This document shows positions 2,972-13,661 of a stretch of 20,842 nt of DNA, piece after piece. The translations under genes and the position numbers were made by a program. How positions within the stretch are numbered: the stretch's first letter is position 1; each line of letters starts with the position of its first letter. This DNA comes from a virus. The DNA lies in IMG/VR virus record IMGVR_UViG_3300032116_001561, positions 1 through 20,842 of that record, one strand, 5' to 3'. Under the pieces are notes generated by a model. The model saw only the letters and a list, made by a program, of their open reading frames with translations. It was not told the origin of the DNA and made no database searches.

Positions 2972-3294
2972 AGGGCAAGCCCAAAGCCAAGGACCGACCA
3001 CGCGTCGTACAGCGTGGCGGTCGAGTGATTGCCTACACCCCCAAGGAGACGCTCAACGCAGAGCGGGCAATTGCTGAGGCATGGGATGGCCCCATGTTTG
3101 AAGGAGAAGTTGCTGTCCACATTGTCGTTGACACCGAGGGCACGGCGGTCATCGTCGAAAGGGTTGACCTTGAGACGAAGAGCAAGTTGCGTGGTGACAT
3201 CGACAACTACATCAAGACAATCCTTGATGCGCTCAACGGCGTGGCGTGGAGAGATGACAGCCAGGTAGTCAAGGTGACGGGAATTAAAGCATGA
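2881..3294 (+). CDS. rusA: RusA-family Holliday-junction resolvase
   Basis: 137 residues, close to the usual RusA size. It would cut four-way junctions made during replication and recombination, as a dimer. The core begins SIFIEGKPKAKDRPRV (27-42), then AYTPKE (51-56), and GDIDNYIKTILDALNG (105-120) with D106, D108 and K112, matching the catalytic Asp-x-Asp-Asn and Lys of E. coli RusA. WRDDSQVVKV (123-132) supplies the further acidic residues. The first ~25 residues are Arg/Lys/Gly-rich and are encoded by DNA that also codes for the primase C-terminus (91-base overlap). No other usual start codon lies before the core, so this extension is probably real. The end overlaps the next gene as ATGA. 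Confidence 0.9.
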   Translation: MGKVPGKRAVGRARTGEVAGSSIRSHSIFIEGKPKAKDRPRVVQRGGRVIAYTPKETLNAERAIAEAWDGPMFEGEVAVHIVVDTEGTAVIVERVDLETKSKLRGDIDNYIKTILDALNGVAWRDDSQVVKVTGIKA

Positions 3295-3719
3295 ATGCAT
3301 ACGACATTCCCGCACCGAACTGGAAGGCAGACCTTGAGTATGGCAAGGTGGGCGAGGCGCTGGTCGAAAGATTCCTCGACGACATCTCGTCGGGTCATCT
3401 CGAAGTCAAGACGGACCGCTACCGCAACGGACGCATGGTTCTCGAAGTTGAACAGAACCCCCGTGGCCGTGGCTGGAAACCCTCGGGTGTCATGGTCACG
3501 GAAGCCAAGTGGTGGGTGTACCAGTACAATCTCGACGGAGCGTTCACGGTTGTGTCTGTCGCTCGCATCAAGCGATACATCGCCATCCACGCCGACAACA
3601 TGGAACTGCGAGTGTTCGGTTCCCGTGGTGATAACGTGGCTCGTGGCTATCTTCTGATGCCAGAGCAAGTCACCGACTTGCTCATCAATCCGGACTACGA
3701 CGATGCCGCTGAATCCTGA
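3291..3719 (+). CDS. PD-(D/E)XK nuclease-like protein
   Basis: 142 residues. Probable small endonuclease-fold protein. A helix with E16 and E22 (EYGKVGEALVERF) precedes HLEVKTD (36-42; E38-x-K40 with D42), then RMVLEVE (48-54). A Gly-rich turn leads to SGVMVTEAKWWVYQYN (65-80). This order (helix Glu, strand E-V-K-x-D, strand ending in E, then a block ending in a Trp-Trp/Tyr strand) matches short phage proteins often listed as Holliday-junction-resolvase-like or PD-(D/E)XK proteins. Its exact catalytic set is unsure because only part of the usual D...(E/D)xK spacing can be placed. It overlaps rusA by ATGA and the next gene by 17 bases. Substrate unknown; a recombination or DNA-processing role is inferred from context. 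Confidence 0.7.
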   Translation: MNAYDIPAPNWKADLEYGKVGEALVERFLDDISSGHLEVKTDRYRNGRMVLEVEQNPRGRGWKPSGVMVTEAKWWVYQYNLDGAFTVVSVARIKRYIAIHADNMELRVFGSRGDNVARGYLLMPEQVTDLLINPDYDDAAES

Positions 3720-4470
3720 CCTCGTACCCGCAAAGCCACAGACCGAAGGGGAGTGGCTGCTCCAATGGGGCGACCACATTACGGACGGCAACCGCCAGCA
3801 CATTCTCGCTGTACAGGAGGCGGTCGAATCGCTCGACGAAACCTCTCGCATGTGTGTCGAGGCCGTGTTCTACGAAGGCATTTCGTATAGTACACTGGGC
3901 AAGCGCATCGGTGTGTCCAAGCCACACGCCTGGCGATTGGCTCGCAAGGCCATGGCAGAACTACAGCGCAAGTTATCAATCGACCACTCAATCAATCTGA
4001 GGTACAAGATGTTTGATTACTGGGAAGACGCAGCCGAAGCAATCGTCGACGAGTGGCATTCGTTGTGCGGACCGGAACGCGCCAACCTCCAACACCTCAA
4101 CGCATACCGAAAGACAATCGCCAAGTCGGTGCGTGAGCAGAAAGAAATTCCTCGGCTCGACATTATCGATGTCGCGCACCATGCCATCGGCCAACTCAAG
4201 TCACTCAAGCAGTGGAGCAAAGAGGGTATGGTCGAGTTGCTTGTCCGCAAGCAACGAGACTATGGACACTCGAACATCATGGAGTTCGGTCATGTTGGCA
4301 TTGCCATTCGTCTGTGTGACAAACTGGCACGGCTGGATACGCTATTGAATAACGGGGCTACGCCACAGAACGAGTCACTACTCGACACATGGATGGACCT
4401 CGTCGGTTATGCTGTCATCTCGGAGATGCTGGCAATGGACACTTTCGAACTGGAGTTGAAAGATGAATGA
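3703..4470 (+). CDS. Fusion: sigma-region-4-like HTH plus DUF1599 (Nmad1-type) domain
   Basis: 255 residues. Two domains are visible. Residues about 42-92 form a helix-turn-helix like sigma-70 region 4: SLDETSRMCVEAVF, then ISYSTLGKRIGVSKPHAWRL, then ARKAMAELQRKL. Residues about 172-245 resemble DUF1599, also called nucleotide modification associated domain 1: KQRDYGHSN, then GHVGIAIRLCDKLARLDTLL, then LLDTWMDLVGYAVIS. Between them is a helical linker. DUF1599 proteins occur in phages, some with base-modification genes; their reaction is not established. The HTH suggests DNA binding or an RNA-polymerase contact, so this could be a regulator that senses a nucleotide, or a targeted modification factor; both ideas are inference. 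No base-modification enzyme is visible nearby. The start ATG (3703) overlaps the previous gene by 17 bases. Confidence 0.82.
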   Translation: MPLNPDLVPAKPQTEGEWLLQWGDHITDGNRQHILAVQEAVESLDETSRMCVEAVFYEGISYSTLGKRIGVSKPHAWRLARKAMAELQRKLSIDHSINLRYKMFDYWEDAAEAIVDEWHSLCGPERANLQHLNAYRKTIAKSVREQKEIPRLDIIDVAHHAIGQLKSLKQWSKEGMVELLVRKQRDYGHSNIMEFGHVGIAIRLCDKLARLDTLLNNGATPQNESLLDTWMDLVGYAVISEMLAMDTFELELKDE

Positions 4471-5038: not shown

Positions 5039-5520
5039 GGCAACTGCCCCTTGGCCGGCGACAGCAGGCACTCGAACACGGCATCGAAGTAGCCTGCGTC
5101 GTCTGCCACCTCGGGAGAAATCTCCACATGAATCCACTTGCCACCCGGCGCACCAGCCATCGTCTTCTTCTTGTAGATAGACCAGTCGTTTCGGTCGCAA
5201 CGCCAGCCCCGGCCAAACGGGCCGGGGTAATAGTCGGCAATGTACTCAATGCCTAGCGCCTCGTTGTGGCGCACCAAGAAATCCATGAGGCCACAAGCGT
5301 CCTCGTAGTTCTTGAACCCAATGTCGAAAGCCCGCCCCGTTCCGTGGACGCTGGGCTTCCCTTCCTTGCCCCGCATGTCACGCACATTCCATGAGCCAAG
5401 ATTGCGGAACTTGCCAGCGTTCAGGAACATAATCCACTGAATCAGTTTGCTCGTCCCCTGTCGACGCCCCTTGGCGTTGCCATCAAAGCCCGTGTACTTG
5501 CGGTTCTTCTTACCGAACAT
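5032..5520 (-). CDS. M15-type zinc peptidase, probable endolysin or virion-linked wall hydrolase
   Basis: 162 residues. Probable zinc peptidase cutting peptidoglycan peptides, either for lysis or as a virion enzyme at entry. SVHGTGRAFDIGF (57-69) gives H59 and D66 with the spacing of M15 zinc ligands (SxHxxGxAxD). WIHVEIS (129-135) gives the second histidine, H131, followed by E133. The ExxH pair of VanX-type enzymes is not present (K128 stands there), so it fits the H-x-D/E type of M15 better. There is no signal peptide, membrane segment or cell-wall-binding domain. The N-terminus is basic. The ATG at 5520 shares one base with the giant gene's TAA (TAATG), so it is coupled to the virion operon. 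No holin is recognisable beside it. Confidence 0.82.
   Translation of the reverse strand: MFGKKNRKYTGFDGNAKGRRQGTSKLIQWIMFLNAGKFRNLGSWNVRDMRGKEGKPSVHGTGRAFDIGFKNYEDACGLMDFLVRHNEALGIEYIADYYPGPFGRGWRCDRNDWSIYKKKTMAGAPGGKWIHVEISPEVADDAGYFDAVFECLLSPAKGQLPY
5207..5227. repeat. All-GC 8-bp hairpin near the convergence of the two operons
   Basis: CCCCGGCC (5207-5214) and GGCCGGGG (5220-5227) are exact reverse complements with loop AAACG. It lies inside the M15 gene, about 170 bases past the last plus-strand stop. There is no T-run on either side, so it is not a standard intrinsic terminator, but it is very stable and could slow transcripts from either direction. Confidence 0.5.
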
Positions 5521-8500
5521 TACTCACCTTCTCGCTTTCTGCGACGCAACTCTGCTTCAATCATCGAATCAGTGACCTCGCGCACGGGGATGCCGAAGTA
5601 ACTTGCCCAGTTACTGCGACGACGCTCCTTGTTGTAATCATCTTCGCCAGACAAACGACTGAGTTGCGCCAACGGCGGAACGAGGTTGTTCATTGCGTAG
5701 TTGAATCTGTCGGTCGTGCCCATGCTGCCGTCTGGCAATTCCTTTGACTGGCCCAACAGAACCGCCAAAGCGGATACTGCCGGGGAAAACGCACCACCCG
5801 TAACTTCCTGCGCCTTTTCGCTGAACTGCGTGTCGGTGTACATTTTGCGCTTTGCGAAGACTGCTTCGAGCGGCACGCGAAGACCAGGGTTGACATAAGA
5901 GGTCAGCCGCATTGGGTCGGCCAGTTCGGACAATTGCTGATTCAGTTTATTGAATCCGAAGTCGGGGTTTACGTACAGGCCATCGGCAATCTTCACGCCA
6001 CCCGATTCGCGCAACCACTTGGGCACGACTTCGCCCTCGTCTTCTTCGGCACGAATTGAGTTCGTCACTCTCTGGTACATGAGGTAAGCACGAGGATTCT
6101 CGTACTGGTTCACAATCTGCATTGGCAGGTTGCGCGACATCCAGAACCAGAATGGGACGAACTGACGCATCACCGTGTCCGCCGGTGTCGTCGTGCTGTA
6201 GTCAAACAAGAATCGCTTGACCCTGGCTGTCGCATCGTTGAAGTCTCCGCCCTTCACAACGGTGTCCCAGGCGAGCATAAAGCGAGCCGAACCTTCCGAT
6301 ACTTCATTGGCCTTTCGGAAAGCATTGACGTATCCATTGTCAACCAGCCACTTGCGCTTGGGATTAAACATCCTCAACGCTTCCGTAGCGCGACCGTATC
6401 CTGATGCGTCCATTGCTGCGATAGCGGTAGTCACGCGCGGGTCTTGCTTGGCAAGCCATCCCGCTTCGTCGCCAGTCTTGACCGCTCCACGCCAAGCCCT
6501 GTACAGGCGTAGTCCCTCGGTCATGTTTCCGATATCAGCACCACCAGCAATGCACATGAATGTATTGCCCATGCTGTTTCGAACAACGAATCCAGGCGTC
6601 GATACTGCGTATGCCTTAAAGAATCCGGTGTACTTGCTGAGGAACTTGCTGAGTGCCCTGGCAAATTCGGGAACCTGGAGACGCGACATGTTTACATACA
6701 TGTCGCTTAGCCACTTCTCCGCCTGGTATGAGGGCATGCCGTATGCTTGCAGGCTAACAAATCCCTTGGCCTTGTCGACCTCCTTGACAATTCGTTGACC
6801 GACAGTACCATCTGCGAGACCAGCGTTGAACTTCTGAAGGAACTGTTCCTGGTTTGTCGACGACATAAACTCATATTCGAGATTAGCCAGGTCGGTGCGA
6901 AGCCTGGTCATAATGTCAATCTGGTCGGCGCTGCTCTGGGGTAGCAGGTCATCGATGATTGAATCGGCCTCGTCCAACCATGCGAGCACATCACCAACAA
7001 ACGCCATGTCGTTGTCAGTACGCTTCAGGAATTTCTCAATGTCTCCCATGAGAGTAGCCAACCGCTCACGGTTGGCGTGCAACTTGGGGATAATTGTTTC
7101 GGCGTACTCAGCCGCGCTCATCGCAAACAATTCAGCACTATCGAACTTGGCCATTGCATCAACCTGCGTCTTGCCGGCTTTCACCAAACGCTTCTGAGCA
7201 TCCTTGGCCGCCGACTTCAATGGCTTAGCGAGAGCCTTCTGCTCTTTGGCCCAAGCCTTCTTGGTCTTCTCGAGTTCTCCAGCGAGGTCTTCCTTCTGGT
7301 CGGCAATTGCGGCGACAGCCCGCTTGCGCAAACTAACCTCAAGACCCAGTGTCATGCGGCCAGTCGCCATATCGAAGTTGGGTTCGAGTTCCTTGGAGTA
7401 GTAAATCGCCTGGTCTGCAAGTCTCTTGATTTCAGCGGCATTGGCCGCATCATCAGCACCACGAACAAGCATTGTGCCCGATGGACCAACCGGCCCCTTC
7501 TCAATCGGACGCAGTTCCAGAATCTCGTCACGAATTTTTTCTATTGCCTCAGTTGGTTTCAGCCGCTTCGAGCGGCTTCCCTGGATTGGGTTCACAAGTT
7601 GGTCGTAGCGAGCCATGACATCGTACTCAATGTCATCACCAAGACGAGAAGTCATCTGCTCCATCGTTTGAACCATCTTGGTAGCAATGCCTTCGGCAAC
7701 ACCAAGTTTGCCGCGTGCATCAGTATCCAGTTTGTCTGCCTGTTCGCGCATACGAGCGGCAAGGTCGGCAGCCGCCTCCTTTGACTTCACGATTTCACGA
7801 TACTTCGCAGCCTGTGCCGTGCGCTCGAGTTCATCGACCTTGTCGAGAACCTTCTTGTCCACCGACTGGCTCCACACCCTTTCGAGGTGACCTCTACGAG
7901 CCGTGGTCTGCCACGGCGATGAATTGCGGGGCAACCTGGAAATACCACCAGTCAATTCGTCAATGGTGAAATCACCATTCTTCAATCCCTGGTTGATGAA
8001 GTGCGCCTTCATTAGGGCCGAGCGTTGCACATCGGGCTGCGAAGCACGAATCAACATCTGAATACGGTTGCGATATTCCGTTAGGCGCTTAATCTCCGCA
8101 TCAATTGTCGGCTTGACTATTGCCTCGAAGAAACTGACCTTCGAACCGGCGGCACTCACGAACTCCAACGGCCTGTCTCCGTAGGTTGTCGAAGGACGCG
8201 AGAGCCAGCGCTCCAACAGAGCGCGTGTTTCATCTGACATCTGCTGCTCGCGCAACAACTTCTTGACGGCATTGCCAATGCGGCCGTTTGTTCTGTTGTA
8301 TTCAAGTTCAAGCAAGTAGGTATCGACTCGACGGCCTTCGGCTGCCAGTCTCTCTACGCCAGCGGTGTCACCAGCGGTAAGGAACAATGATTCAATTTCC
8401 TCTGCGCTGAACTGAATATCACTACCATCGCGCTGGACAAAGCGCGATGCGTCAATACGTCTAGACAGTTTGACATTCGCTTCTTCAATACTCTTGCTTA

Positions 8501-11500
8501 GTTCATCAATCTCAACCTGCTTGGCGGCCCGCAACTTAGCGGCTGTCTCGTCCGTGATACTGCCAACGCCACCCTGAATATTGTTTTTTTCAATAACCAA
8601 CTTGGTGCGTTGATTCTCAAGAGAACGAACGTACTTCCGTAGTTCTTCCTTTCCTTCGCTCAGAATTGGGACGATGTTTTCGGTCTGACTTACCGATTCG
8701 GTATTACGTCCCAATCTATCCAGGTCGTCGTATATCTTATTGATTTCGGCTTGATACTTCTTCTCCGAAATCTTTCTGCTCGTGCGCATCGCATCGAGTT
8801 CATCGATGCGCTTGTAGAACTTCTCAATAGTCTTTTTGTTGCGGACATTCTTGGCGGCGTCTGGCACAAACTGCCCGCCGTCACGTTTAGTTGTTCCGCG
8901 AGCAAGCGACCAATACTTCTGGCCCACATTACCTGGCTTTACATCATCAGTAATCTGACCACGCGAAGTGACCGGAACCCACTTGCTGTTCTCATCTCGC
9001 CTAATAAAGATTTCAATACCCGTGTCGAATAATTCACGAGCCTTGGTCACATGAGTTCTGACCAGAGGAATCTTTACCCCACCCTCGCTGGCTACGTCAG
9101 CGAGCATCATGATTACATCGTTCAATCCACGACGCTCAACCGCCGCCAAATAATCTGGAGAGTTCTTGATTTCAAAAATGCTGCGCACAACATCGCGCAC
9201 CTTTGACAAGTCTTCTTGCGTCATCCCTTCGCGTTGTGCTTTTGTCAGCGGCATCCGCGGCCTTTGGCCAGCAGGGATGCCGAGTGTTTCCGCAAGCAAC
9301 TCCAACTCCGACAATTCGGTCTGCTGCTTTTCGAGAGCCTGCTTGGCCGCAGCACTTGCTTCGTCGGCAAGTCTTACGGCAGCAACTGCTTCTTCAAGTT
9401 GGGCGGCTGTTGCTCGCAGCGATGCTCCAAGTGAAGATGGAACATTTACGTTCCACTGACGAGAGCCGAACACCGCCTTGTCGTATGGGTCAATAAACGG
9501 GTCTGCCGCACGCTGGAGCCACAAAACATTACGACGCGTTGACCTGTTGTCACCCCCGACTGACTTGATTGTTTCAGCCAACCACGACGACAGTTCTTCC
9601 ATCGAAGCATTTGGTCCATAGCGCTCGACCGTAACCCACTTATTGCCAATCTTGCGCTTGACACCAGGCTCGGACTTGACAATAATTTCTAGTTGTTCCT
9701 TGATTATAGGAAGCCCAGTATTGCGCTTTGCTCCAGGAAATACAGCCTGGTACCAATCGCGCAATTCCTCTATCATTTCTTTGCGCATCGACTGGGCGAC
9801 ATCGAGATTAGTCGCTTTGAGTTCCTTGAACTCTACGGTACTACTTCTGAGTCCACCAAACTGATTCAACTTGCGAAGAAGTCTAGGCGCATCAGCATTG
9901 CCTCGCGCCTTTGCAACAGCACGGGAAATGGCTGGAGTCTTAATTGCTTCTTCAATTGCCTCGTATGCCTTAGCCGGGCTGTCGTATTCGCCGTTGAGAA
10001 TCTTGTACTGAATATCCCTGAGAGCGCTCCAGGCATTGGCCTGGCTTTCGGATACGGAACCAATGCGGTCCAGGAAATCACGAGCAACGCGATTGTAAAT
10101 TTCTTGGACAACACCAAGACCCGGCACCATATTGGCCGATGCATATACATCGACAGTTGCGGCAATGCGCTTTTCAACATCAGCAACAAACCACAACTTT
10201 GTCAACAGGTCTTGCAATTGGTCGGACGAGTCGGAGCGGACAACATCCGCTACGTCTCGGACACCCCCAATCAATTTGCCACGCTTGTTTATTTCAGTAC
10301 CAAAGTACTGAACGGGGATGTCCGGGAATTCGCGTGCGATTTCTGCATCGAGTGCTTGCAACTGGCCACGAAGAGAATTCTCCCTGGCCTCGCGCTTCAC
10401 TACTTCAACAAGAGATTTCTTGATTGCATTGGCATCAAAATAATTACCAATTGCTTTTACGCTCTGAATCGCCGACCCAAGCGCATCGCCTTCGCGCAAA
10501 GCCTTTTCAGCAAGTTCTTCACGGAACTCCGCACTATCTTCAAAGCCCAGAATCCTGGCCTGCAGCCGGTCACGCGCTCCCTTGCCCGCATCAACCGGGC
10601 GCTTTTCCTTACCGATGTCAACAATCTTCCCACCACGCCGAGCACCGCGTGACTTCTGCGTCGGCACGGTGATGCTGTCGGTGATTGTCCCCCTGGTAAT
10701 TCCTTCGATATATGAATCAACATCGTCGTTGTCACCATAGCGAATCAGCCATTCAACATCATCGACCATGTTCGACATGTCAATAGTGAGCGACTTCTCA
10801 ATGGCCTTCGAGCCAATCTTGCCAGTCGTGTCGTATCCAACCGTGACGGTAATTGACTTGGAGTTTTCAAAGTTCGAACCGATGCCCTTGAGAATCTTCA
10901 TGATGTCGTCGACATCCAATTCCCTGGGCACTCCCTGGAATCCCGCATCTTCAGCGAGACCAAGAAGTCCATCGAAGTAGTGGCGTACTGCCATGTACTC
11001 GGGCCGAACCAGCAGTTCGGCCAATCTGTCCATAGGCTGAGCAATCTTTGCGTCAGCAATTGCGCGCCCCATGACGGTATCGGCGTTCAGGAATTCGTTG
11101 GCAAGCCTGCGAGAAGCAACATACTCTCTGATGCCAACGGCAAGCGAACGCTCCGCTGAAATCAAATTAGAGCGTCGTGCCGCAATTGTCGCCGCACGAC
11201 GACCCTTGAATCGGCTTTCGTTGAGACTCCTATGGATTCTGTCTGCGTCTGCGGCTTTTCTCATTACGCCGTTGGGTCCAAACAGCGACTCCCACATTTC
11301 GGGCTGAGATGTACGCAGGCGAGGGTTGGCGGAAGCAACCCACAGCAATGCCTGACGCATCTCCCCAACTGTGGCATTGCCACGGATTGATGATTCAACT
11401 ATTTCGGCAACCCGCTTCTCGCTCATATTCTTGAGCGAATCGACAGTAATGCTGTTGTCGGGGTTTGCTACCTTCCACCATGATTCTTTGGAGGCGGCAA

Positions 11501-13661
11501 TAAGCGCCTCGACTCGCTTACCCTCAACATCGACGGGTACGCCGGTCGATACCGCTTCCTTCAATTCCCTAGCAAGATTGGTAATTGCGTCGCTACCAGA
11601 GAATGAACCCTCGTTCATAATCTTGTCGAGGTTTTCCTGAATGAATGCCCCGACTTTGCCAATCTCCTCTTCAATGTTGAATAGACGCTGGGCATCGGCC
11701 TCTGCGCGCACAAGCGCACGCTGGACATCTTCGAGCCGAGCCTGCGGCTCGGTGAGTGCGGCGCGTGCAAATTCAAGGCGAGCGACGACAGCCTCGTAAT
11801 CGGATTCAAGGGAACGAATTACATCGGGCACTTCTTCATACAAGGCAGACAAACGATTGCTGTGTTCGAGCATGTCCGCAATAGCATCATCAAGGAGGAT
11901 GCCCGCGTCGTAGATTCCAGCAGCAGTCAAAGCCTGCTTGTTCACGGCAGACAAAGCCTCACGGGCTTTGCTTGCCGCAGAAGAAATTGCGGCAGTGCGG
12001 CGTTCGGTAGCCAACTTCAGCGCCTTCTTGGCGTCCTTCAATACCTGTGGGTCTGACTTCTTGAGTACATCGGACAGGGGCTGGAAAACGCCCTTCTCGA
12101 CCAGATACTGCTTTCGCGCAATCAAGCCCATCTGCTCTGCGTACGAACCAACATACTTCTGCATGACCGTTGCTGCGTTTGTTTCAAAGAACTCACCCTT
12201 GAAACCAGCATCGTTGGCAATCTTATTCAGCCTGTCGACGGTAATTGGCCCATCAATATCCTTGAGGGGAACCCCGAAGAACTCATCGTCGAGTGTCATT
12301 CTGTGCTTGAACGAACCAGCATTATCGAGGGGGTTGAACAGAATCTCCCTCAATGCCGATGTGTTCTTTGTGTTCTTGCTCGTCACATAGAACAGAGCAT
12401 CGTCCGTCATCATGTGAGGGAAATAGTTCTTGACCCTGCTGGCTTCGTAAGCCGGGTCAACGGCCTTGGCCGCAGTATCAATATCATTCCAAAGCACATC
12501 AAACCAATCGCGCAACTTGCCGGCAACGCGCTGTTCAACTGTCGTCGCAAGACCTGTCACGGGGTCGACAAACGGAAGTTCTCCTTCAAGAATCTTCCGC
12601 ACATTGGGCGTTGCCGCCCTGAAATCCTTTTCACCGACTTCCTTGATGAGTCCGTCAACAAGGGCAGAAGCCTTGCGCGATGCTGCGCCAACGGCCTTGC
12701 GTCTGGTGTTGTCCGATACAACCATGTGTAGATATTTTGCAGCGCGTTCAGTCGGTGCCGTGCCACGAGCCAGAGCCTTTCTAGCATCCGCAACATCGTC
12801 GGGCGTAAATACATCTGCTGCACGCTTGAACAAGTGGTCGCCAGACCACGTGCGCATAGAAGCAAGCGAGCCTTCAAGGGCCTGGCCAGTTCTTGTGAAT
12901 CCAACGCGACGACCCATGAAGTAGACGCCGGCTCGGTCCATTCCAAGCGTCTCGAACACTTCATCTTTCTGGTCCGCCAATGCTGAACGACCATAGCGGT
13001 ACGCCCTCTTTGCGAGGTCCGCATCACCAGTCTTTTCGAGAACGCGAACGGCAAGAGCCTCACGTCCCGAACGCCCAGTAACTGGATTAAATCCAATGCG
13101 TGCAGCACGCTTCGACAACTGTTCGGCAGTTTCGCCAGCGACTTCACTGCCAATACGGAGCGCTCGACTGCCACCAAATGTAACGTACGTCAGGGGGTCG
13201 GTGACAATGTCACCAACAAAACCTAGCGCTCTGTTGCCCCACCTACCCCAGAAACTGTCATCCGAGAACACATCACCGAATACTGTTCCCCATCCAAATG
13301 TCGGGTCAGTTATTTGCTTGCCAAGGTCATTCCACGAAGCATTGGTGTTTGGGTCACTGTCGAGTGCATCAGCAATTTCCTGAGCAACAGAAGGAATAAC
13401 GCGACCGGGCAAGGAGATAATCTCTCCAGCCTTGCCAACCACCTTGCCGACAGGACTCTCAAGAATGTCCTGGAGGACACCCATGAGTCCACCGGCTTCC
13501 TTGCTCTTGGGCTTGTCAGCACCAAGCGACCAACTCTCCGTCTTCGTCGGAGGTGGTAGCCGCATGACATCACTGCGACGAACAACAGCGGGTGTAGTCC
13601 TCTGCCCTCCTGTCGCCGTAGTCCTGGGATTTGCGTTTAGGATTTCCTCCCAAGTCGCCAC
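5520..13661 (-). CDS. Giant internal virion / ejection-type protein (2713 residues)
   Basis: Probably carried in the capsid and injected with the DNA; role inferred from position after capsid, adaptor and nozzle genes and from sequence style. Starts with GTG at 13661, overlapping the previous TAG by one base, with GGAGG nine bases upstream. Residues 1-560 include a hydrophobic Gly-rich part (about 135-165, GNRALGFVGDIVTDPLTYVT) and KNYFPHM near 415, a pattern of large phage polyvalent proteins. About 560-2250 is long helical, coiled-coil-like sequence rich in Glu, Lys, Ala and Arg (for example near 640-670, 1440, 1950-1990 and 2120-2170). About 2260-2713 is compact: STPGFVVRNSMGNTF (near 2350), then FLFDYSTTTPAD and FVPFWFWMSRNLPMQIV (near 2485-2515), a signature of the C-termini of such proteins. 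No polymerase or lysozyme motif found. Spot GC content is lower mid-gene. Confidence 0.85.
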   Translation of the reverse strand: MATWEEILNANPRTTATGGQRTTPAVVRRSDVMRLPPPTKTESWSLGADKPKSKEAGGLMGVLQDILESPVGKVVGKAGEIISLPGRVIPSVAQEIADALDSDPNTNASWNDLGKQITDPTFGWGTVFGDVFSDDSFWGRWGNRALGFVGDIVTDPLTYVTFGGSRALRIGSEVAGETAEQLSKRAARIGFNPVTGRSGREALAVRVLEKTGDADLAKRAYRYGRSALADQKDEVFETLGMDRAGVYFMGRRVGFTRTGQALEGSLASMRTWSGDHLFKRAADVFTPDDVADARKALARGTAPTERAAKYLHMVVSDNTRRKAVGAASRKASALVDGLIKEVGEKDFRAATPNVRKILEGELPFVDPVTGLATTVEQRVAGKLRDWFDVLWNDIDTAAKAVDPAYEASRVKNYFPHMMTDDALFYVTSKNTKNTSALREILFNPLDNAGSFKHRMTLDDEFFGVPLKDIDGPITVDRLNKIANDAGFKGEFFETNAATVMQKYVGSYAEQMGLIARKQYLVEKGVFQPLSDVLKKSDPQVLKDAKKALKLATERRTAAISSAASKAREALSAVNKQALTAAGIYDAGILLDDAIADMLEHSNRLSALYEEVPDVIRSLESDYEAVVARLEFARAALTEPQARLEDVQRALVRAEADAQRLFNIEEEIGKVGAFIQENLDKIMNEGSFSGSDAITNLARELKEAVSTGVPVDVEGKRVEALIAASKESWWKVANPDNSITVDSLKNMSEKRVAEIVESSIRGNATVGEMRQALLWVASANPRLRTSQPEMWESLFGPNGVMRKAADADRIHRSLNESRFKGRRAATIAARRSNLISAERSLAVGIREYVASRRLANEFLNADTVMGRAIADAKIAQPMDRLAELLVRPEYMAVRHYFDGLLGLAEDAGFQGVPRELDVDDIMKILKGIGSNFENSKSITVTVGYDTTGKIGSKAIEKSLTIDMSNMVDDVEWLIRYGDNDDVDSYIEGITRGTITDSITVPTQKSRGARRGGKIVDIGKEKRPVDAGKGARDRLQARILGFEDSAEFREELAEKALREGDALGSAIQSVKAIGNYFDANAIKKSLVEVVKREARENSLRGQLQALDAEIAREFPDIPVQYFGTEINKRGKLIGGVRDVADVVRSDSSDQLQDLLTKLWFVADVEKRIAATVDVYASANMVPGLGVVQEIYNRVARDFLDRIGSVSESQANAWSALRDIQYKILNGEYDSPAKAYEAIEEAIKTPAISRAVAKARGNADAPRLLRKLNQFGGLRSSTVEFKELKATNLDVAQSMRKEMIEELRDWYQAVFPGAKRNTGLPIIKEQLEIIVKSEPGVKRKIGNKWVTVERYGPNASMEELSSWLAETIKSVGGDNRSTRRNVLWLQRAADPFIDPYDKAVFGSRQWNVNVPSSLGASLRATAAQLEEAVAAVRLADEASAAAKQALEKQQTELSELELLAETLGIPAGQRPRMPLTKAQREGMTQEDLSKVRDVVRSIFEIKNSPDYLAAVERRGLNDVIMMLADVASEGGVKIPLVRTHVTKARELFDTGIEIFIRRDENSKWVPVTSRGQITDDVKPGNVGQKYWSLARGTTKRDGGQFVPDAAKNVRNKKTIEKFYKRIDELDAMRTSRKISEKKYQAEINKIYDDLDRLGRNTESVSQTENIVPILSEGKEELRKYVRSLENQRTKLVIEKNNIQGGVGSITDETAAKLRAAKQVEIDELSKSIEEANVKLSRRIDASRFVQRDGSDIQFSAEEIESLFLTAGDTAGVERLAAEGRRVDTYLLELEYNRTNGRIGNAVKKLLREQQMSDETRALLERWLSRPSTTYGDRPLEFVSAAGSKVSFFEAIVKPTIDAEIKRLTEYRNRIQMLIRASQPDVQRSALMKAHFINQGLKNGDFTIDELTGGISRLPRNSSPWQTTARRGHLERVWSQSVDKKVLDKVDELERTAQAAKYREIVKSKEAAADLAARMREQADKLDTDARGKLGVAEGIATKMVQTMEQMTSRLGDDIEYDVMARYDQLVNPIQGSRSKRLKPTEAIEKIRDEILELRPIEKGPVGPSGTMLVRGADDAANAAEIKRLADQAIYYSKELEPNFDMATGRMTLGLEVSLRKRAVAAIADQKEDLAGELEKTKKAWAKEQKALAKPLKSAAKDAQKRLVKAGKTQVDAMAKFDSAELFAMSAAEYAETIIPKLHANRERLATLMGDIEKFLKRTDNDMAFVGDVLAWLDEADSIIDDLLPQSSADQIDIMTRLRTDLANLEYEFMSSTNQEQFLQKFNAGLADGTVGQRIVKEVDKAKGFVSLQAYGMPSYQAEKWLSDMYVNMSRLQVPEFARALSKFLSKYTGFFKAYAVSTPGFVVRNSMGNTFMCIAGGADIGNMTEGLRLYRAWRGAVKTGDEAGWLAKQDPRVTTAIAAMDASGYGRATEALRMFNPKRKWLVDNGYVNAFRKANEVSEGSARFMLAWDTVVKGGDFNDATARVKRFLFDYSTTTPADTVMRQFVPFWFWMSRNLPMQIVNQYENPRAYLMYQRVTNSIRAEEDEGEVVPKWLRESGGVKIADGLYVNPDFGFNKLNQQLSELADPMRLTSYVNPGLRVPLEAVFAKRKMYTDTQFSEKAQEVTGGAFSPAVSALAVLLGQSKELPDGSMGTTDRFNYAMNNLVPPLAQLSRLSGEDDYNKERRRSNWASYFGIPVREVTDSMIEAELRRRKREGE

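Follow-up and report, generated by a model that had tools for sequence, protein, structure and literature searches.

A conserved fusion of a sigma-region-4-like helix-turn-helix and a DUF1599 unit in small freshwater phages

What might a phage protein do that joins, in a single chain, a DNA-binding helix-turn-helix (HTH) resembling that of sigma factors with DUF1599, a domain for which, to our knowledge, no reaction is known? Such a protein is encoded at positions 3703–4470 (+ strand) of the window, i.e., the entire 20,842-nt stretch of viral DNA analysed here, in a frame of 255 aa with zero internal stops. The N-terminal half harbors a sigma-70 region 4 HTH (residues 41–88; 3823–3966, + strand), which matched the Pfam family PF04545 (Sigma70_r4) with E=1.7e-6 and 27.9 bits, above the cut-off of 24.1. 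The C-terminal half contains the DUF1599 core (residues 183–240; 4249–4422, + strand), also called Nmad1, a name that Iyer et al. reportedly introduced in 2013. Here, the match to PF07659 (E=3.3e-4, 21.4 bits) stayed below the cut-off of 25, phrog_1485 of the PHROG database matched residues 176–245 with E=1e-14, and the PF07659 cut-off was passed in three related fused contigs (L029, L038, L041). Both Pfam families were matched at E≤0.1 by 25 of 25 fused relatives (alignment A3). No match to sigma region 2 (PF04542) was found by Pfam, and the stretch N-terminal to the HTH is only about 40 residues long; because region 2 is lacking, the protein is not a complete sigma factor.

The fusion is not peculiar to this one contig. 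A first IMG/VR scan recovered full-length relatives at 100, 75, and 54% identity, and alignment-based scans raised the number to 63 distinct fused proteins, with identity down to about 30%. A chimera, an assembly error or a frameshift artefact is therefore excluded. Thus, the search for the same fusion in other phages was successful, and the first-pass annotation of this DNA was right in describing a single intact frame that combines a sigma-region-4-like HTH with DUF1599. All 63 proteins occupy one gene slot in a lineage of 36–40 kb podovirus-like contigs, and their carriers constitute a group of small freshwater phages. A 37-kb contig with an identical gene matches the entire window and represents a podovirus-like phage, since P22/SU10-type portal and adaptor genes are present. 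Searches at the nucleotide level against the phage collection identified no relative, and the four loci found in bacterial genomes all encode DUF1599 without the HTH. The best match in the viral structure library was UniProt A0A6J5QFU4 (252 columns, E=1e-14, 38% identity), a 273-aa protein of an uncultured Caudovirales phage that shows the same fusion with nearly full-length structural similarity, while its entry label, “Clostridium phage phiCTP1, Gp74”, names neither domain. Literature searches found no functional study of A0A6J5QFU4. Hence, the fusion is already deposited in public databases without a description and, as far as our searches reach, was previously undescribed. It is real and conserved, and it is valuable as a starting point for work on an orphan domain family rather than as a solved mechanism.

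Gene order was constant among the loci compared, beginning with a PDDEXK nuclease, a small protein, a DnaB-type helicase, an archaeo-eukaryotic primase (AEP) and RusA, followed by a phrog_13596 protein, the HTH(-DUF1599) gene, small genes and a convergent gene on the late strand. In many relatives, the phrog_13596 gene immediately precedes that of the HTH protein; in the window it lies at 3291–3719 (+ strand; E=1.6e-25) and overlaps the start of the fusion by 17 nt. Three observations concern other genes of this region. The primase at 2069–2971 of the window matched an AEP-TOTE domain (E=2.7e-17) and partially a CRISPR-associated PrimPol model. The start of RusA lies inside the 3′ end of the primase gene, with an overlap of 91 nt. 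On the strand of the structural genes, a single frame of 2713 aa (5520–13661, − strand) is very large, given a phage genome of about 37 kb.

Structure predictions were made for the whole protein and for its C-terminal part. The AlphaFold model of the full protein reached a mean pLDDT of 84, and residues 96–255 were modelled as an all-helical fold with a pLDDT of 92.9 and a pTM of 0.89. In Foldseek searches, the HTH model matched solved sigma region-4 domains with TM scores, normalised to the target, of about 0.75–0.8, in agreement with the earlier assignment of this half; the sigma factors among the solved structures were found for the HTH only. For the C-terminal unit, there was no convincing match among the 50 Foldseek PDB matches listed, and no sequence relative was found in the PDB. 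A full-length likeness to GntR/FadR-type regulators was weak and not significant (2di3, prob 0.63, rmsd 11) and was rejected. The model, together with the separate downstream gene in the split loci L245, L252, L253, and L261 described below, delimits a C-terminal all-helical unit of approximately residues 98–255 (3994–4467, + strand), which comprises a W-x-x-A helical part and the DUF1599 core. The core is thus just one part of this unit.

Which residues of the unit are under constraint was evident from 139 distinct proteins (63 fused and 76 stand-alone). K183, Y187, G188, R203, K207, R210, E224, D228, D232, and Y236 were 100% conserved, and D186 and D206 were conserved at 99–100%, each missed only once. 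These positions make up the three segments of the core, K183 to DYG188, R203/D206/K207/R210 and E224/D228/D232/Y236; R203, K207, and R210 are predicted to lie on one helix and E224, D228, D232, and Y236 on another, with one-turn spacing. All invariant residues shared with stand-alone DUF1599 proteins (PF07659, phrog_1485) are kept in the fused forms, and the fused DUF1599 has therefore retained its site. The fused forms differ from the stand-alone ones in the signature KQxDYGHxN and in the covalently attached HTH, with Q184 and H189 invariant in the former and rare in the latter.

The invariant charged set resembles, by our inference, a phosphate/metal-binding or catalytic site. This K/R and D/E set would suit a bifunctional protein in which DUF1599 acts as a nucleotide-metabolism enzyme, e.g., a MazG-like NTP/dNTP hydrolase, and the HTH only tethers it or is co-expressed with it, with no signalling between the halves. 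That a great many phages encode DUF1599 by itself, as a single-domain protein, and that it was repeatedly split from the HTH into a gene of its own would fit as well. MazG-type all-alpha NTP pyrophosphohydrolases are likewise all-helical with a charged conserved site, a parallel that is an analogy only, but they carry the EExxE motif, which the fused protein lacks, and no fold or profile match was detected. In a motif scan, the EExxE...ExxD metal motif was absent from the fused protein and inconsistent across the DUF1599 family, and MazG-family entries were absent from the 50 Foldseek PDB matches listed. Alignments by hhalign gave no match to MazG, either for the E. coli protein or for an alignment of 7 MazG members, or to a phage dUTPase; kinship to MazG was neither found nor properly excluded by them, because the MazG-vs-dUTPase control at this depth was negative too. 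We consider such a bifunctional enzyme unlikely, also since it leaves the proximity of DUF1599 to sigma-like genes elsewhere (see below) unexplained.

The comparison of related loci separates the two halves of the protein. An HTH-only form of 100–163 aa occupies the same slot at 32 loci; DUF1599 was absent from 14 of the 14 HTH-only contigs searched, and exactly one copy was present in 6 of the 6 fused contigs searched. At six further loci, the HTH and DUF1599 are encoded by separate, coupled genes. The junction in L245, L246, and L252 is GGAGATTAAATG, a stop followed immediately by a start, the split pair of L261 overlaps by GTGA, and the downstream starts of L253 and L262 lie at the junction as well. 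Recoding across the split was considered and rejected: in L245, TAA is followed directly by ATG and preceded by GGAG, which therefore constitutes an ordinary coupled start. The HTH and DUF1599 genes of MW202803, a more distant podovirus, are overlapping neighbors located after primase and RusA. In a primase tree of 84 rows, the split forms appeared in three separate places and the HTH-only forms were grouped in one part, requiring 2–3 changes. On the simplest reading of these sequences, the fusion would be the common state of the lineage, from which DUF1599 was repeatedly split off or lost; an ancestral fusion is not proven, as the root of the tree is uncertain. The HTH-only relatives identify the HTH as the constant part, and the split neighboring genes suggest that DUF1599 works together with gene-control proteins of the phage. 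Separately, we observed a conserved frame of 58 aa and a further overlapping frame after the HTH gene at HTH-only loci (L049:4778–5219, L066:5203–5650, and others).

The coupled pairs would also suit a two-subunit complex, in which the DUF1599 unit served the HTH as a protein-interaction or oligomerisation module that binds RNA polymerase or replication proteins and needs no small ligand. The all-helical fold and the position of the gene in a replication module, beside primase, DnaB helicase and RusA, are in line with this. However, conservation is centred on the invariant polar and charged set, which is common to the stand-alone proteins of unrelated phages and resembles a ligand or catalytic site more than a variable interface, and we hold a pure interaction module to be a little more doubtful still than the enzyme discussed above.

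The HTH-only relatives bear equally on the second proposal of the first-pass annotation, a DNA-targeted modification factor, in which the HTH would direct the protein to DNA and DUF1599 would contribute to making a modified base or installing it. The Pfam family name, “nucleotide modification associated domain 1”, and methyltransferases among the neighbors of some stand-alone DUF1599 genes speak for it. Yet close relatives in the same lineage dispense with DUF1599 altogether, and, as had been noted for the window, no partner base-modification enzyme was recognised there or in the matching 37-kb contig with its 37 called proteins (PHROG, best 25 of 41 families). This proposal is therefore disfavored, and we regard it as highly improbable. 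A role in a defence system was rejected as well, with no PADLOC match.

Very many phages outside this lineage encode DUF1599 as a stand-alone protein of approximately 90–190 aa; one IMG/VR scan yielded 425 confirmed relatives. PF04545 was found within 2 kb of stand-alone DUF1599 in 19 of 30 representative records vs 5.9 expected under random placement, and in 7 of 15 vs 1.3 expected (p ~1.5e-4) when restricted to contigs of at least 30 kb, in a test that treats the records as independent, which the sampled phages are not. This proximity could partly stem from shared replication/regulation modules. The order of neighbors around DUF1599 varied among the sampled phages: one large group has the order primase, DUF1599, sigma-like gene; in Geobacillus phage PT9.1, DUF1599 adjoins an ArpU-family gene; in crAss-like phages, it is located away from any sigma gene and has polynucleotide kinase neighbors. 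In a Streptococcus agalactiae phage, DUF1599 lies beside VRR-NUC and primase/polymerase genes, with ArpU about 4–5 kb away (PMC10221047). MT836088 (H4) was rejected as a relative; it is an ordinary sigma factor that matches the HTH only. At L118:5240–5575, a short HNH endonuclease frame, perhaps a homing insert, was observed between DUF1599 and the next genes.

Because the HTH is constant and genes for such HTHs recur as fusion partners, coupled genes or near neighbors of DUF1599, our preferred reading is a regulator of phage transcription to which DUF1599 is attached as an effector module; we give this reading an even chance of being correct. It ranks before the bifunctional enzyme, followed by the pure interaction module and, last, base modification. 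The lone region-4-type HTH would contact a −35-like promoter element, RNA polymerase or both, and the all-helical DUF1599 unit would act as an effector that controls or assists the HTH. DUF1599 may tune the HTH through a nucleotide or a similar phosphorylated ligand, which it would bind and perhaps also hydrolyse, e.g., in a phage transcription switch that is coupled to the nucleotide pool during replication. Promoter binding, the ligand and the direction of control are what we infer here. None of the other proteins among the 37 called on the 37-kb contig was recognised as a transcription factor. The initial idea of a regulator reading a nucleotide signal is hence supported on its regulator side, by the region-4 fold match and by the association of DUF1599 with sigma/HTH genes; its nucleotide part is compatible with the data and stays presumptive.

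Some findings argue against this reading. DUF1599 also occurs away from sigma genes, and the fused protein, like the HTH-only forms, is acidic (pI 4.8–6), whereas the late regulators described in PMC13123087 are small and basic. Late activators of the ArpU/RinA type likewise possess a region-4-like HTH without region 2 and are encoded near the end of the early operon; they are basic, whereas the fused protein is acidic and carries the extra C-terminal DUF1599 unit. No significant Pfam or PHROG match to the ArpU/RinA family was found in the fused protein (phrog_36 at 0.053).

The series of fused, split but coupled, and HTH-only forms links DUF1599 to a DNA-binding transcription module, in a compact protein that offers clean comparisons. 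If this link holds, it would indicate a class of phage transcription regulators under ligand control. More generally, and only as a tentative proposal that is rather unlikely to apply in full, DUF1599 could be a nucleotide-sensing effector of transcription in tailed phages, which partners sigma-like regulators as a fused, coupled or neighboring protein and switches transcription by a nucleotide signal. For most DUF1599 members, “nucleotide modification associated” would then be a misleading family name.

A further observation relates to the contig matching the window, outside the window itself. At L083:8988–11306, a gene for a class-II glutamine amidotransferase (GATase_4, E=1.5e-5) adjoins a weak match to Amidoligase_2 (E=0.004), and the two perhaps form a peptide- or amide-modifying pair.
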